A model generated the notes under the pieces. It had not been told where the DNA came from. It saw only the letters and a list, made by a program, of their open reading frames with translations, and searched no databases. Shown in pieces: positions 17,184 to 24,559 of a stretch of 64,000 bases of DNA. The translations under genes were made by a program, and so were the position numbers. Each line of letters begins with the position of its first letter. The first letter of the stretch is position 1. Origin of the DNA: Oceanicaulis sp. MMSF_3324 (GTDB lineage Bacteria; Pseudomonadota; Alphaproteobacteria; Caulobacterales; Maricaulaceae); assembly GCF_030733545.1 (NCBI RefSeq), contig NZ_JASHIU010000001.1:1-64000 (forward strand), in the 5' to 3' direction.

Positions 17184-20100
17184 CTAGCCCCGGTCGACAA
17201 CGGCGGCCAGCTCACGCAATTGCGTTGAGCAGATGGCCACTTTCGAGAGCGTCCAGCCGCCAGCCGAGGACACTTCCTCGAGCGCCCGGTCGGCGCGCCG
17301 GACCATGATGTCCTGGGACTCCGCCCAGGCCGCAACCACCTCTTCGGCCCAGTCCGAACCGGCGGAGGCCAGGTCCTTGGCGAGATCGGTGCGCTCGGTT
17401 TTGACGTAATCCATCATGCCTTCGCAGATGGCCTGCTGGCTTCCATACAGGTCCTCGATCAGACGGCGCATGGCCAGACGGTCCCAGTGCAGGGTCGAGG
17501 AGAGCTGATTGCCCGCCGCCCGCAGGCGGTCGAACATAAAGCGCGCGCCCACCGCGTGATACAGACGCCCCACCGCGCCCAGCGGCCAGTTGACCGCCTT
17601 GGCGAGGTCGATCACGTCCGACGACGAGGTCAGAGGACGCAAGCGCGCCACGTCACGGGCGATATCCTCGGGCGCCCCCGCCTCCACATAGGACTGGAAG
17701 CGCCGTTCAACGGCTTCACAGTCATACGGGCTGGCGATATCGGTCACGAGCGGCTTGAGCTCGTCCACGCCCGGCTGATAGGCCGCAATCACGTCCGCAA
17801 TCGGCAGGACGTCCTGACCCAGGGTCCGCCGCGACAGCCAGTAGGTCTGACGACGCAGAAGCCGGATCACCTCGTCATGAAGCGCGATCTGGACCTCGGC
17901 CGGGGCCTTGTTGTCGAGCGCATTGATCCGGTCGCTGTATTCGTTGAAGCGGAAGATGTTGCGCCCCGCCTCGAACGCCCGCGCCACGGCGGCGACGTCC
18001 GCGCTGGTGCTCTCGATGGCCCGGTTCACAAAAGTGGGGCCGCCCAGATTGATCATGTCATTGGCGAGCCGGGTCGCGATGATCTCGCGTTTCAGCCGAT
18101 GGCCCTCCATGGCGTCGGAGAACTTCTCCAGCTTGTCCGGGAAATAGGTCACCAGCGATTGCTTGAAGTGGGCGTCATCCGGCACGTCGGACTCCACCAG
18201 CTTATCAAACAGGGTGATCTTGGCGTAGCTGATCAGAACCGCGATCTCGGGACGGGTCAGGCCCAGCCCCTGGTCCTTGAGCTCCCGGATCTGGTCCGGC
18301 GCGGGCAAGCCTTCGACCTTGCGGTCCAGACGGCCATCCTGCTCCAGACGCTCCATCAGGCGCTCATGGGCGTCGAGATCCTCGACCGCGTGCTCCCGCG
18401 CGATGGTGATCGCCAGCGTCTGGTCGTAATTGTGCTCGAGAACGTGGTCCGCGACCGTGTCGGTCATCGATTCCAGCAGCGTGTTGCGGTCATCGAGCTT
18501 CATCGAGCCCTCGCGCACCATCGGGTTGAGCAGAATCTTGATGTTGACCTCGTGGTCGGAGCTGTCCACGCCCGCCGAGTTGTCGACGAAGTCCGCGTTC
18601 ACCCGGCCGCCATTGCGGGCGAATTCGATCCGCGCCGCCTGGGTCACGCCCAGATTGGCGCCCTCGCCGATGACCTTGGTGTTGAGCTCTTTCGCGTCGA
18701 TGCGCAGGGCGTCGTTCGCCTTGTCGCCCACCTGATAGTTCTGCTCGCTCGACGCCTTGATATAGGTGCCGATGCCGCCGAACCACAACAGCTCCACATC
18801 CGCTTTCAGGAGCGCGCGGATCAGGTTGGTCGCCGATGCGGCATTGCCGGTCAGACCGGTCAGCTCGCGCATTTCATCGGAGAGCTTGATGGATTTCGCA
18901 GAGCGCGGGAAGATCCCGCCGCCTTTGGAAATCAACGACTTGTCATAGTCCTGCCAGCTTGACCGCCCCTGATCAAACAGGCGCTTGCGCTCTTCCCAGG
19001 TCTTTTCAAGATCGGTCGGATTGGGATCGATGAAGATGTCGCGGTGATCAAATGCGGCCACCAGCTTGATCTGCTTGGACAGAAGCATGCCGTTGCCGAA
19101 CACGTCGCCGGACATGTCCCCGACGCCGATGACGCTGAAGGGCTCGTTCTGGATGTCCTTGCCCATTTCGCGGAAATGGCGCTGAACGCTGACCCAGCCG
19201 CCCCGGGCGGTGATGCCCATCTTCTTGTGGTCATACCCGGCTGACCCGCCCGACGCGAAGGCGTCGCCGAGCCAGAAATCGTACTCGGTCTGCGCCACGG
19301 AGTTGGCGAGGTCGGAGAAGGTGGCCGTGCCCTTGTCGGCGGCGACCACGAGATATGGATCCTCGTCATCCCAGCACACGACCTTTTCGGGCCGTTTGAC
19401 GGCGTCCTCGACCAGGTTGTCGGTGATGTCCAGAAGCCCGCGCAGGAAGGTCTTGTAGGCTTCCTGGCCCTCGGCGATCCAGGCGTCGCGATCGCCCCGA
19501 TCAGGCAATTGCTTGGGATAGAAGCCGCCCTTGGAGCCCACCGGCACGATCACGGCGTTCTTGACCTGCTGCGCCTTCACAAGGCCCAGCACCTCGGTGC
19601 GGAAGTCCTCACGACGATCCGACCAGCGCAGGCCGCCGCGTGCGACCGGGCCAAAGCGGATATGCACGCCCTCGACGCGCGGGCTCCAGACAAAGATTTC
19701 ACGATAGGGTTTGGGATCGGGCAGCTCGCGCACATCGCGGCTGGCGATCTTCATCGAGATCCAGGGCTTGGCGCGACCGTCCTCGTCGGTCTGGAAGAAG
19801 TTGGTGCGCAGCACGGCCTCGATCAGGCGCAGCATCCGGCGCAGCGCGCGGTCGTGGTCCAGGCTTTCGACCCGCTCGAGCAGGATGCGGATGGCCTTGC
19901 TGACATCCTTGGCGTGGCTCTCGCGACTTTCCTCGCCGAAATCGAGATCCGGATTGAACTTGGTGTTCACCAGCTCCAGCAGTCCACGGGCGATTTCGGG
20001 GTTCGCCGCCAGCGCCTCTTCCTGAATGGATTGCGACGGGTCGAGCCCGGTCTGCTGGCGATAGCGGGCGACCGTGCGCAGGAAGGCGGCTTCGCGCCAG

Positions 20101-22091
20101 CTGACCCCGATGCCCAGCACCAGCTTGTTGAAGCCATCATCCTCGGTCTGGCCGGCCAGCACCGCGAGCAGCGCGTCCTCGAACGCCGCCGCCTCATCAT
20201 CGATCTTGCTGGCGCCATCGCCGCTCAGGGACGCTTCGAACTCGTGCACCCAGACCGTCTCGGAGCTGTTTTCCCCATGGCGCTGGACCGGGTACCCGGC
20301 TTCGGCGAGCACATGCAGGCCCAGATTTTCCAGGACGGGCATGACGCCGGACAGCGCCACCGGCTCGCCGCAGCGATACAGCTTCACCCGCAGGCGGTTC
20401 TCGCCGTCCGTCTCGACGCGATAGGCGCGCGCCGCGGTGTCCGCCGACGATTTGACCCGCTCCATGCGGCCGATATCGGCCAGGGCGTCTTCAGGCGAGA
20501 AACGCTCGCGATACCCGGCGGAATAGCCATCGAGATAGCGCGTCACCGCCCGCCGCAGCTCGGCGTCGCCCGCATTGCGCGCAGCATTGTGCAACTCGTC
20601 TTCCCAGGTCCGCGCCAGCGCCGCGATCTCGCGGTCGAGCTCGGACGGATCGGGCTCGGGATGATTGAACGGATCAAGCCCGATGATGAAGTGGACCCGG
20701 GCCAGCGGCGCATCGCCGAATTGCGGATAGAACGCAGACAGACGACCGTTGAAGGCTTCGCGGATCTTCTCGCCCGCCAGTTCGCGCACCTTCGAATTAT
20801 AGCGGTCGCGCGGCACGAAGAGCAGGCAGGAGACAAACCGGTCAAACTGGTCGCGGCGCATGAACAGCTTGGTGCGCGGACGGTCGTGCAGATGCAGGAT
20901 GCCCAGCGAGATATCCAGCAGATCCTGTTCCTCGGTCTGGAACAGCTCGTCACGGGGATAGTTCTCGACGATATTCTGCAGCTTCTTGGCGGAGTGCGAG
21001 CCCGGCGCCTTGGCGGCCTTGTCGAGCACGCGGCGCACCTTGCGACGGATCAGCGGCACCTCGCGCGCCATCTGGTCATACGCCTCGGCGGTGAACAGGC
21101 CCACAAAGCGGGTTTCACCCACCACATTGCCGTCGGCGTCATACCGTTTGACCCCGATATAATCCATGTAGACGCGACGATGGACGCGGCTCTTCATGTT
21201 CGCCTTGGCGACGATCACCGGCGAGGGCGCGCGCATATAGGCCTCGATCGCCGGGGTCAGCATCATCGGTTCGGCGCTCTTGCGCAGCACCTTGCGCTCG
21301 GGGTCACGCAGCACGCCCCGCCCGCTTTCCGATTTGACCTCGGGCTTGTGGTCGCCCTCCATGCCCTTGTCGAAGTCGAACTGATAGGTCCGGCTGCCCA
21401 GGAAGGCGAAATGGTTGTCGCGCAACCAGCGCAGGAAGGCGACGGCCTCTTCCTGCTCTTCCTTGGAGGCGGATGTGTTGGCGTTGGTCAGATGGTCGAT
21501 CGCATCGTCCATCTCCGCGCGCATGTCGTTCCAGTCCTCGACCGCATCGCGCACATCATCGAGGGTGGCGCGCACGCCCGCTTCCAGGCGCTCGCGCACA
21601 TCATCGCTGAGCAGGTCCAGATGGACCTGGATCATGGACTCGTTCAGGCAACGCCCGCCGGACGCCACACGCTGGCCGTCATCATCCCGGCGCACCTGCA
21701 CCACGGGGTGGAACATGGCCAGGACATCCAGACCCTGGCTGGCGATCTCGCCCATGACCGAGTCCACGAGGAAGGGGCGGTCCTGGCCGATGACCTCGAG
21801 GATGTCGCGCTCCAGGCTGCGACCGTCCGCACCTTGCGCCGTGCGGACCCGGACCAGCAATTTGTCCGATCCGCGCTCTGAGCCATAGCGCCAGAACTCT
21901 TCGGCCAGGGAGATCGCATCCTGTTCGGAGATGCCGGCGAGATCATCCGCCAGCGCATCGCCCCAGAGCTGTTCCAGGAAGCTGGCGGCATCAGGCCCGC
22001 TATCGCCAAACGCCGCAGCAAAACGGCTTTGGGCGGCCTTTAAAAAGGCCTCTTTGTCATATGCGTGTCTGACGCTGACCACGGCGTTCAT
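17184..22091 (-). CDS. gdhZ: NAD-specific glutamate dehydrogenase (GDH180/large type)
   Basis: A 1635-aa protein, the usual size for the large bacterial NAD-GDH family, with long N-terminal regulatory ACT-like regions (to about 700), a central catalytic core and a C-terminal extension. Core motifs include KNAVIVPVGSKGGF, GGSAGYDHKKMGITARGGWV and GVGDMSGDVFGNG. It deaminates glutamate to 2-oxoglutarate and ammonium. In Caulobacter the homologue GdhZ also couples nutrient status to division; whether that applies here is unknown. It is the natural sink for glutamate made by the hut operon in this window. A strong inverted repeat lies 42 bp upstream. Confidence 0.95.
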   Translation of the reverse strand: MNAVVSVRHAYDKEAFLKAAQSRFAAAFGDSGPDAASFLEQLWGDALADDLAGISEQDAISLAEEFWRYGSERGSDKLLVRVRTAQGADGRSLERDILEVIGQDRPFLVDSVMGEIASQGLDVLAMFHPVVQVRRDDDGQRVASGGRCLNESMIQVHLDLLSDDVRERLEAGVRATLDDVRDAVEDWNDMRAEMDDAIDHLTNANTSASKEEQEEAVAFLRWLRDNHFAFLGSRTYQFDFDKGMEGDHKPEVKSESGRGVLRDPERKVLRKSAEPMMLTPAIEAYMRAPSPVIVAKANMKSRVHRRVYMDYIGVKRYDADGNVVGETRFVGLFTAEAYDQMAREVPLIRRKVRRVLDKAAKAPGSHSAKKLQNIVENYPRDELFQTEEQDLLDISLGILHLHDRPRTKLFMRRDQFDRFVSCLLFVPRDRYNSKVRELAGEKIREAFNGRLSAFYPQFGDAPLARVHFIIGLDPFNHPEPDPSELDREIAALARTWEDELHNAARNAGDAELRRAVTRYLDGYSAGYRERFSPEDALADIGRMERVKSSADTAARAYRVETDGENRLRVKLYRCGEPVALSGVMPVLENLGLHVLAEAGYPVQRHGENSSETVWVHEFEASLSGDGASKIDDEAAAFEDALLAVLAGQTEDDGFNKLVLGIGVSWREAAFLRTVARYRQQTGLDPSQSIQEEALAANPEIARGLLELVNTKFNPDLDFGEESRESHAKDVSKAIRILLERVESLDHDRALRRMLRLIEAVLRTNFFQTDEDGRAKPWISMKIASRDVRELPDPKPYREIFVWSPRVEGVHIRFGPVARGGLRWSDRREDFRTEVLGLVKAQQVKNAVIVPVGSKGGFYPKQLPDRGDRDAWIAEGQEAYKTFLRGLLDITDNLVEDAVKRPEKVVCWDDEDPYLVVAADKGTATFSDLANSVAQTEYDFWLGDAFASGGSAGYDHKKMGITARGGWVSVQRHFREMGKDIQNEPFSVIGVGDMSGDVFGNGMLLSKQIKLVAAFDHRDIFIDPNPTDLEKTWEERKRLFDQGRSSWQDYDKSLISKGGGIFPRSAKSIKLSDEMRELTGLTGNAASATNLIRALLKADVELLWFGGIGTYIKASSEQNYQVGDKANDALRIDAKELNTKVIGEGANLGVTQAARIEFARNGGRVNADFVDNSAGVDSSDHEVNIKILLNPMVREGSMKLDDRNTLLESMTDTVADHVLEHNYDQTLAITIAREHAVEDLDAHERLMERLEQDGRLDRKVEGLPAPDQIRELKDQGLGLTRPEIAVLISYAKITLFDKLVESDVPDDAHFKQSLVTYFPDKLEKFSDAMEGHRLKREIIATRLANDMINLGGPTFVNRAIESTSADVAAVARAFEAGRNIFRFNEYSDRINALDNKAPAEVQIALHDEVIRLLRRQTYWLSRRTLGQDVLPIADVIAAYQPGVDELKPLVTDIASPYDCEAVERRFQSYVEAGAPEDIARDVARLRPLTSSSDVIDLAKAVNWPLGAVGRLYHAVGARFMFDRLRAAGNQLSSTLHWDRLAMRRLIEDLYGSQQAICEGMMDYVKTERTDLAKDLASAGSDWAEEVVAAWAESQDIMVRRADRALEEVSSAGGWTLSKVAICSTQLRELAAVVDRG

Positions 22092-22279: not shown

Positions 22280-22969
22280 ATGCCTCACGCTCTTATTACG
22301 GGCGCCAATCGCGGGCTCGGCCTTGAGCATGTCAGCCAACTTCTTAAGCGGGAATGGACGATCAGCGCCGCAGTGCGCGATCCTGAGTCCGCCGACGCCC
22401 TCAAGGCGCTCGACCCGGGCGATGGCCGCCTCGAGATTCTGCTCTATGACGCCTCGGACCTGAACGCCGCCAAGGCGCTCAAGGAAAAAGTCACCGGACC
22501 GCTGGACATCCTGTTCGCCAATGCCGGCGTGATGGGTCCGAAAGAGCAATCCTTCGGCGAGGCCGCCAATGACGGCTTCCTCGACACGTTCCGCATCAAT
22601 ACGCTGGCGCCGCTGGCGCTGGCCGAAGCCTTCGCGGACCAGGTGGCCCAAAGCCAGCTCAAGGTGATCGCGCTGCAATCGAGCCGCATGGGCTCCATCG
22701 CCGACAATGACAGCGGCGGCCGCTACGCCTATCGCGCGTCCAAGGCGGCGCTGAACGCCGTGGGCAAGTCGCTGAGCATCGATCTTCAGGACAAGGGTGT
22801 GGTCGTGCTGGTCCTGCATCCGGGCTGGGTGCGCACCGATATGGGCGGGCCGAACGGGCTGATGACGCCGAGTGAATCGGTCAGCGCCCAACTCGACCTG
22901 ATCGCGCGCGCCAATCCGGCGATGAGCGGGCGCTTCTTCCATATCAGCGGCGAGGACCTGCCCTGGTAG
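22280..22969 (+). CDS. Short-chain dehydrogenase/reductase
   Basis: A 229-aa SDR with the nucleotide-binding GANRGLGLEHV loop near the N-terminus, NAG in ILFANAGVMG, and a YRASKAALN catalytic Tyr-x3-Lys. The C-terminus (HPGWVRTDMGGPNGLMTPSES) matches the CsgA/C-factor-like SDR group. The substrate is unknown. The start at 22280 was chosen because the protein then opens directly on the Rossmann strand (MPHALITGANRG) with GGAGACGACC upstream. A strong terminator follows the stop. Confidence 0.9.
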   Translation: MPHALITGANRGLGLEHVSQLLKREWTISAAVRDPESADALKALDPGDGRLEILLYDASDLNAAKALKEKVTGPLDILFANAGVMGPKEQSFGEAANDGFLDTFRINTLAPLALAEAFADQVAQSQLKVIALQSSRMGSIADNDSGGRYAYRASKAALNAVGKSLSIDLQDKGVVVLVLHPGWVRTDMGGPNGLMTPSESVSAQLDLIARANPAMSGRFFHISGEDLPW

Positions 22970-22994: not shown

Positions 22995-23032
22995 CAAAAA
23001 ACCCCGCAGCCAGGCTGCGGGGTTTCTTTTTG
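22995..23032. terminator. Bidirectional intrinsic terminator
   Basis: An 11-bp perfect stem AACCCCGCAGC/GCTGCGGGGTT (23000-23010 with 23014-23024) and a 3-nt loop, with T-rich flanks on both strands (TTTCTTTTT on plus, TTTTTTG on minus). It ends the SDR gene and could equally stop transcription arriving from the minus-strand small gene at 23158-23259. Confidence 0.9.
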
Positions 23033-23037
23033 CAAGC

Positions 23038-23075
23038 GGCGCCGCCGGACGGGGACAGGCTTGTCCGGCGGCGCC
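23038..23075. repeat. 13-bp GC-rich hairpin
   Basis: GGCGCCGCCGGAC (23038-23050) pairs perfectly with GTCCGGCGGCGCC (23063-23075) around a 12-nt loop. It follows the bidirectional terminator by 5 bp and has no T-tract of its own. On the minus strand it lies between the small gene at 23158-23259 and the shared terminator, so it would be in that gene's 3' untranslated region. Confidence 0.75.
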
Positions 23076-23157
23076 TGCAGGCCTCATCGGGCAGGCTGGG
23101 GGGACGCACTCTGAGGCCTGTTCTGTTCACTGACGCGTTTCATCGAATCGCGTTCAT

Positions 23158-23259
23158 TTATCCCGTGATGTAGAGCCCCTCGCCTGAAGCGCAAGCGGCT
23201 ATGAGGCTGAGAGTCAGAAAAATACCAGTTGCGATCACCAGTGAGATGGCGCGGGTCAT
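23158..23259 (-). CDS. 33-aa lipoprotein-like small membrane protein
   Basis: A short frame encoding one hydrophobic helix (about 4-22) that ends in a lipobox-like IAAC at 20-23, leaving a very short tail CASGEGLYITG. The ATG at 23257-23259 has GAAGG 7 nt upstream on the minus strand. Independent support comes from the bidirectional terminator at 22995-23032, which would serve a convergent transcript, and from a long hairpin in the putative 5' leader (23316-23360). The signal-like N-terminus has only one basic residue, so a simple inner-membrane peptide is an alternative to a lipoprotein. I know no named family for it. Confidence 0.5.
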   Translation of the reverse strand: MTRAISLVIATGIFLTLSLIAACASGEGLYITG

Positions 23260-23315: not shown

Positions 23316-23360
23316 AGCCGGGCAGACGCTGAAAGACAAGGCTTTCAGCGTCTTCCGGCT
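23316..23360. repeat. Long interrupted hairpin in leader of small gene
   Basis: AGACGCTGAAAG (23324-23335) pairs perfectly with CTTTCAGCGTCT (23342-23353) over a 6-nt loop, and an outer AGCCGG/CCGGCT pair (23316-23321 with 23355-23360) extends the stem to 18 bp with a small internal loop. No T-tract adjoins on either strand. It is 57 nt upstream of the minus-strand small gene and about 180 bp upstream of the plus-strand PepSY gene. Confidence 0.75.
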
Positions 23361-23537
23361 GGGGAGAGGTCCGGTGGGGGGATCCGGCTCCGCATTCGCA
23401 ATCGAGGATATGGGGCGCACGCGACCGTTTCGCCAGACACGTCCGCTCACAGCTGTGTGAAAGATGTATTTCCGGATCGGCAATATTCCGGGGCACACTC
23501 ACCACATATCAGACTCATGGATTGGGGGAGGCTTGAG

Positions 23538-24254
23538 ATGATGGTTCTTCGCACGGCCGTAAGGGTGCACAAATGGCTGGCCCTGATCATCGGCATTCAG
23601 GTGATGATCTGGATCCTGGGCGGGCTGGTGATGAGCGCCCTGCCCATCGAGCGTGTCCGCGGCGAGCACAATATCGCCCGTCATGCGCCTCTCATGGCGG
23701 ACCCTGCCGACCTGAAATCCGTCGAGGAAGCAGCCGCGATCGCGGGTTTTGACACGCTGGAAAGCGCCGCCCTGACCCATCTTGCAGGCGCTCCGGCCTG
23801 GCGTCTGGAGAGCGCCGGTCGGACAATCGTCATCGACGCCGTCACAGGCGCGCGCCTGTCGCCGGTGGATGAAGCGCTGGCTCGCACCATCGCCCGACAC
23901 GATTTTGCGCCGGAGGCCGAAATCGAGGCCGCGCAGCTGCTCAACGATCCGCCCTCCGAATACGGGCCGGGCGGCGAAGTCTGGCAGATCCGCTTCGCCG
24001 ACGCCGACCAGACCCGTTTGTACATTGACCCCGATACCGGCGTCGTGCGGGCGCGCCGGTCCGACACCTGGCGGGTGTTCGACCTGTTCTGGCGATTGCA
24101 CGTGATGGATTATGACGACGGGGCGGACTTCAACCATCCCCTGCTCATCATCTCGGCGGCCCTCGGGCTGCTGGTGGCCCTGGCCGGTCTTGTCATCCTG
24201 TTCATCCGGATGCGGCGCAGCTGGATGATCTGGCGCGCATCGCGATCGGTCTGA
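23538..24254 (+). CDS. PepSY-domain inner-membrane protein
   Basis: A 238-aa protein with an N-terminal transmembrane helix (about 10-40, WLALIIGIQVMIWILGG), a soluble region with PepSY-like segments (WQIRFADADQTRLYIDPDTGVV), and a C-terminal helix (LLIISAALGLLVALAGLVILF). The RLHVMDYDDGADFNHPLL segment before the last helix is typical of PepSY-associated membrane proteins, some of which act in siderophore-iron reduction. Role here is not established. The start at 23538 follows GGGGGAGG at an 8-nt spacing; longer upstream frames run through the hairpin region and lack a Shine-Dalgarno site. Confidence 0.82.
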   Translation: MMVLRTAVRVHKWLALIIGIQVMIWILGGLVMSALPIERVRGEHNIARHAPLMADPADLKSVEEAAAIAGFDTLESAALTHLAGAPAWRLESAGRTIVIDAVTGARLSPVDEALARTIARHDFAPEAEIEAAQLLNDPPSEYGPGGEVWQIRFADADQTRLYIDPDTGVVRARRSDTWRVFDLFWRLHVMDYDDGADFNHPLLIISAALGLLVALAGLVILFIRMRRSWMIWRASRSV

Positions 24255-24484: not shown

Positions 24485-24559
24485 TGGAGCGGGCGATGCG
24501 ATTCGAACGCACGACCCTCACCTTGGCAAGGTGATGCTCTACCCCTGAGCTACGCCCGC
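24485..24559 (-). tRNA. tRNA-Gly (anticodon GCC), CCA encoded
   Basis: Read on the minus strand the gene begins GCGGGCGTAGCTCAGGGGTA and shows a complete cloverleaf: 7-bp acceptor stem (GCGGGCG/CGCCCGC), D arm, anticodon stem CACCT/AGGTG around TTGCCAA with anticodon GCC at 24525-24527, and a T arm containing GTTCGAATC. The CCA end is encoded. It decodes GGC and GGU. Confidence 0.97.

Follow-up and report, generated by a model that had tools for sequence, protein, structure and literature searches.

Four described systems lie closest to the locus reported here. The VcdRP transcript of Vibrio cholerae has been shown experimentally to combine a 29-aa ORF, a C-run pairing site and a rho-independent terminator; its seed consists of four cytosines, and the peptide VcdP binds citrate synthase (PMC8672173). 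In SgrST, the base-pairing part is widely conserved, with the ORF present in only a subset of species (PMC8672173). In the alphaproteobacterial CcaF1-CcsR (CIN1) arrangement, one transcript carries a small-protein gene with sRNAs and a terminator behind it, CcaF1 being a 71-aa DUF1127 RNA-binding protein accompanied by four CcsR RNAs (PMC10253847). The Caulobacter sRNA GsrN pairs with G-rich mRNA leaders through a run of six cytosines in its 5' loop; BLASTn finds homologues of it within Caulobacteraceae alone, as a rule close to sigT/phyR and under a sigma-EcfG site (PMC5869019).

The present locus was found in Oceanicaulis sp. MMSF_3324 (Alphaproteobacteria; Maricaulaceae), in the 64,000-nt stretch of contig NZ_JASHIU010000001.1 here called the window. 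Its parts are:

23447..23460, minus strand: operator of putative promoter P1, TCACACAGCTGTGA, a TCAC-N6-GTGA palindrome (motif counts compared with shuffles)
23408..23413, minus strand: -10 element of P1, CCATAT (in relatives, separated from the operator by 32-34 nt)
23158..23259, minus strand: 33-aa ORF, predicted small single-helix membrane peptide (homologue search, conservation, codon-position test)
23168..23195, minus strand: P2, CTTG-N18-CTACAT, putative sRNA promoter in the last ORF codons (Cys23 to Tyr-Ile)
23035..23122, minus strand: structured RNA with two hairpins, putative sRNA body (R1 and R2 covariance models, compensatory changes)
23090..23109, minus strand: loop 1, GUGCGUCCCCCCAGCCUGCC, C-run nearly invariant
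23050..23059, minus strand: loop 2, CCUGUCCCCG
22999..23025, both strands: candidate bidirectional intrinsic terminator, shared with a convergent SDR gene
22280..22969, plus strand: convergent oxidoreductase of the SDR family, adjacent to the RNA in each of the 10 loci compared at first

Quite probably this is a dual regulator, combining a small membrane peptide with a trans-acting C-rich sRNA whose own promoter is nested in the ORF. As in VcdRP, a short ORF is followed by a conserved C-run site and terminator, but the peptide here is hydrophobic and the RNA consists of two covarying hairpins with C-rich loops. As in SgrS/SgrT, the RNA is more widespread than the ORF, although peptide and RNA are themselves different. 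The order of small-protein gene, sRNA and terminator is that of CIN1, but there is a single RNA, and the 33-aa hydrophobic peptide matches neither DUF1127 nor any other relevant Pfam or NCBIfam entry. The C-rich 5' loop (UGCGUCCCCCC) is reminiscent of GsrN; unlike GsrN, the RNA lies beside a gene for an SDR or an AI-2E transporter, and its putative promoter looks different. All of these are likenesses by analogy, and membership in none of the systems is claimed. What defines a dual-function RNA, a conserved ORF on the sRNA transcript, would be represented here by coding conservation, a Shine-Dalgarno (SD) sequence and a shared upstream promoter, and the C-rich loops fit trans base-pairing with mRNAs.

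The 33-codon frame (MTRAISLVIATGIFLTLSLIAACASGEGLYITG) has exactly the start and stop given in a preliminary description made from the window alone, which took it for an overlooked minus-strand gene with a good SD sequence and one hydrophobic helix. An SD-like AAGAAGG does precede the ATG, with an SD 4-mer upstream of 30 of 36 orthologues, and the gene itself is borne out by conservation. A peptide search of 61 genomes gave matches at the same location, always from Met1, in 8 of 15 Oceanicaulis genomes (its own included; E 1e-15 to 2e-3) and in two further genera; a scan of loci flanking the RNA placed the ORF beside it in 36 of 64 Maricaulaceae loci, in about ten genera. These 36 ORFs have a mean nucleotide identity of 46%, yet their length is nearly fixed (31-33 codons in 34 of them), and they share the peptide consensus M-x-[RK]-hydrophobic-S-..-A..-L[YF]I[SA]. 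The preliminary description had staked the gene on conservation of the frame among relatives and had proposed a search for bias at synonymous sites, and both are found: in codons 2-20, third codon positions show excess divergence in all four genera tested (p from 0/20000 to 63/20000) and when pooled (0/20000, p<5e-5), with pN/pS of 0.29-0.61 for codons 1-20 and synonymous differences almost saturated (pS about 0.6). Copies also occur apart from the RNA: in G081 (L225), the sole copy found lies about 72 kb away from it and still ends LYIG without a CTTG box, and G030 (L227) has a second copy elsewhere. No family member has a relevant match in Pfam or NCBIfam. From the third-position excess, near-fixed length, SD sequences and unlinked copies, we conclude that the ORF is a real, conserved and independently selected small-protein gene.

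The RNA, for its part, evidently does not need the ORF, since none adjoins it in 28 of the 64 Maricaulaceae loci or in those examined from Hyphomonadaceae and f4. Six Oceanicaulis genomes (L024, L026, L029, L033, L034, L035) keep the RNA and operator, and mostly the CTTG-N18 spacing, and are missing the hydrophobic peptide frame.

The proposal that the peptide is a lipoprotein holds up in part. IAAC in the window peptide fits the lipobox [LVI][ASTVI][GAS]C after an h-region, and 19 of the 36 orthologues carry a lipobox-like [LIVA][AST][AGS]C, at two positions: C23 in Oceanicaulis and close genera, where all eleven Oceanicaulis, g13 and g15 peptides have AAC with a hydrophobic -3 residue, and C19 in Robiginitomaculum, mostly as VTGC, ATGC or LSAC. 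SPase II might then cut before Cys23 to leave an 11-residue lipopeptide, with the RNA as its co-transcribed partner. However, 15 of the 36 have no cysteine anywhere, including all those of Maricaulis and of g7 (Hyphobacterium-type), which are of equal length. Moreover, the Oceanicaulis Cys23 codon overlaps the CTTG of the -35-like box in P2, which relatives without the ORF keep too; in Maricaulis, the CTTG found in this register is read as Ser-Trp, and g7 has CTTC there, coding for Ser. A promoter can thus account, at least partly, for the conserved lipobox cysteine of Oceanicaulis. Overall, we consider the lipopeptide rather unlikely. The C-terminal LYI is, to judge from its persistence in G081 without a CTTG box, conserved at the protein level as well.

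The preliminary description found the ORF and passed over a far more conserved element, an 88-nt structured RNA between its stop codon and the terminator. In an alignment of ten loci, the highest DNA conservation falls 3' of the stop codon. The region has a fold z of -6.9. Compensatory changes were counted at 22 of 26 base pairs, and 96.2% of alignment cells are paired (36-41% in slid-partner controls), in an alignment fitted to the covariance model and so leaning toward structure; RNAalifold nevertheless recovered both hairpins from a plain MAFFT alignment, including changes on both sides in hairpin 2. The loops (UGCGUCCCCCC and CCUGUCCCCG) are C-rich, each with a UCCCC run. A first covariance model placed the RNA in 14 of 15 Oceanicaulis genomes and 63 of 137 Maricaulaceae, as a rule in one copy per genome. 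Rebuilt from 93 sequences, the model found it in 167 of 398 genomes of the order, usually single-copy, in three families (f1; f2, with Hyphomonas and Henriciella; and f4), with no match in sampled genomes of other orders. The R2 model had none in f3, which we take to be Caulobacteraceae. At the Rfam 15 gathering threshold no sRNA family matched in the window or seven relatives; matches at E<=10 were sub-threshold hairpins, rejected as chance stem-plus-terminator similarity. The window's one gathering-level match is a tRNA gene (24488-24559, minus strand). The RNA, supported by covariation, is a previously undescribed family and the core of the locus.

Some outlying cases may be recorded here. 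G017 (L226) and G034 (L228) belong to a genus that the RNA model did not pick up and have the ORF followed by C-rich sequence. Divergent G017 keeps P1, the ORF and a two-hairpin C-rich RNA (37 bits); the G034 version is weaker and more diverged. A metagenome-assembled genome labelled Acidobacteria (L147) carries a Hyphomonadaceae-type RNA and is probably misbinned.

The convergence of the ORF on the SDR gene at a two-way terminator, described earlier, is confirmed in the letters: 22999-23025 is a perfect GC-rich stem. The terminator scan scored the plus strand, and the minus-strand tail was read directly; since the stem ends there in TTTTTT, it can be expected to terminate both strands. The hairpins end at this terminator common to the SDR gene, and so might be a mere 3'-UTR stability or termination element rather than a trans-acting sRNA. 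This is improbable: loop 1 is conserved more strongly than the stems, its C-run hardly varying; the RNA occurs without the ORF, with a promoter-like element of its own; and a separate terminator follows it in Oceanicaulis. A role as a cis leader is unlikely, because the window has no same-strand gene between the hairpins and the convergent SDR gene, and a leader-peptide or attenuator reading was rejected on the same ground. Among 71 loci, in counts that are lower bounds because some flanks are short, an SDR gene is convergent downstream in at least 27, an AI-2E family transporter gene is upstream in at least 20, and both are present in at least one. In the window, a PepSY_TM protein gene (23541-24251, plus strand) is divergent from the unit; it is probably a recent neighbour, since in the initial comparison of ten loci it recurs only in the closest relative, G007 (69% identity). 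Elsewhere in the window, a 790-codon open frame (19509-21881, plus strand) antisense to a minus-strand 1635-aa gene is a typical artefact of GC-rich DNA.

Promoters P1 and P2 are assigned from sequence. The P1 operator is present in 51 of the 64 Maricaulaceae RNA loci (mean of shuffles, 0.2). Together with C[CT]ATAT it is found in 31 of 36 loci with the ORF vs. 2 of 28 without (Fisher p 1e-10), and in 34 of 35 cases operator and YATAT are 32-34 nt apart. Operator plus CCATAT occurs in 7 of 15 Oceanicaulis genomes, with one site each at this locus; G007 has one extra site. We found no description of the TCAC-N6-GTGA motif in the literature, and inspection of P1 and P2 by eye showed no sigma-EcfG-type GGAAC-N16/17-CGTT. 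A hairpin in the 5'-UTR (23321-23356) is conserved no further than the closest relative. P2, whose CTTG overlaps the Cys23 codon and CTACAT the Tyr-Ile codons, has its exact spacing in 33 of 64 loci (shuffles, maximum 1), including 14 of the 28 without the ORF. That RNA and P2 persist in such loci might suggest that the RNA alone matters and the ORF is an incidental frame over its promoter, but this is very improbable given the third-position excess upstream of P2 in every genus tested, the unlinked ORF of G081, and the way P1 tracks the ORF.

The target search, over window start regions and for a genus-wide motif near ATG codons, singled out no target. The PepSY mRNA leader was rejected as a target of loop 2: its pairing ranks about 64th of 683 window start regions, which is unremarkable, and just one of the nine relatives in the initial comparison has PepSY next to the RNA. 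Genus-wide, CTGGGGGGA near ATG marks no widely recurring gene; one frame, presumably CoA-transferase-like, recurs in two genomes. In two genomes (L239, L249), CTGGGGGGATAC, which complements loop 1, precedes the start codon of an orthologous long frame, a possible sRNA target.

The dual-regulator reading thus starts from coding conservation, RNA structure with covariation, and conserved promoter-like elements. P1, under a factor acting at TCAC-N6-GTGA, would drive a transcript comprising the ORF, the two-hairpin RNA and the terminator. The ORF would yield a peptide that spans the inner membrane once, its N terminus inside and its conserved C-terminal LYI[SA] motif at the periplasmic face. Free sRNA would come from P2 or by processing of the P1 transcript, and the UCCCC runs of both loops could pair with G-rich, SD-like stretches of target mRNAs, leading to repression or stabilisation. 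The co-occurrence of P1 with the ORF supports such a dual locus, as does retention of all three elements in divergent G017; against it are the RNA loci that have no ORF beside them, the exact P2 spacing in only about half of the loci and the lack of a distinct candidate from the target search. It is possible, if doubtful, that the coding end of the ORF, for a membrane or lipid-anchored peptide, doubles as the sRNA promoter, with LYI and the -10 element under joint selection and both products serving one envelope pathway under one dedicated regulator.

The locus adds a new RNA family, absent from Rfam 15, for three families of one alphaproteobacterial order, relatives of Caulobacter, and with it a new peptide family. 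It suggests that 33-codon frames of the kind skipped by gene callers can mark conserved regulatory loci, and it is unusual in that a putative sRNA promoter lies within the final codons of a small-protein gene that is itself conserved. Probably it joins the known kind of dual small-protein/sRNA loci, its two outputs being a peptide and a gene-silencing RNA, and it looks like a two-output locus common to a group of aquatic bacteria.
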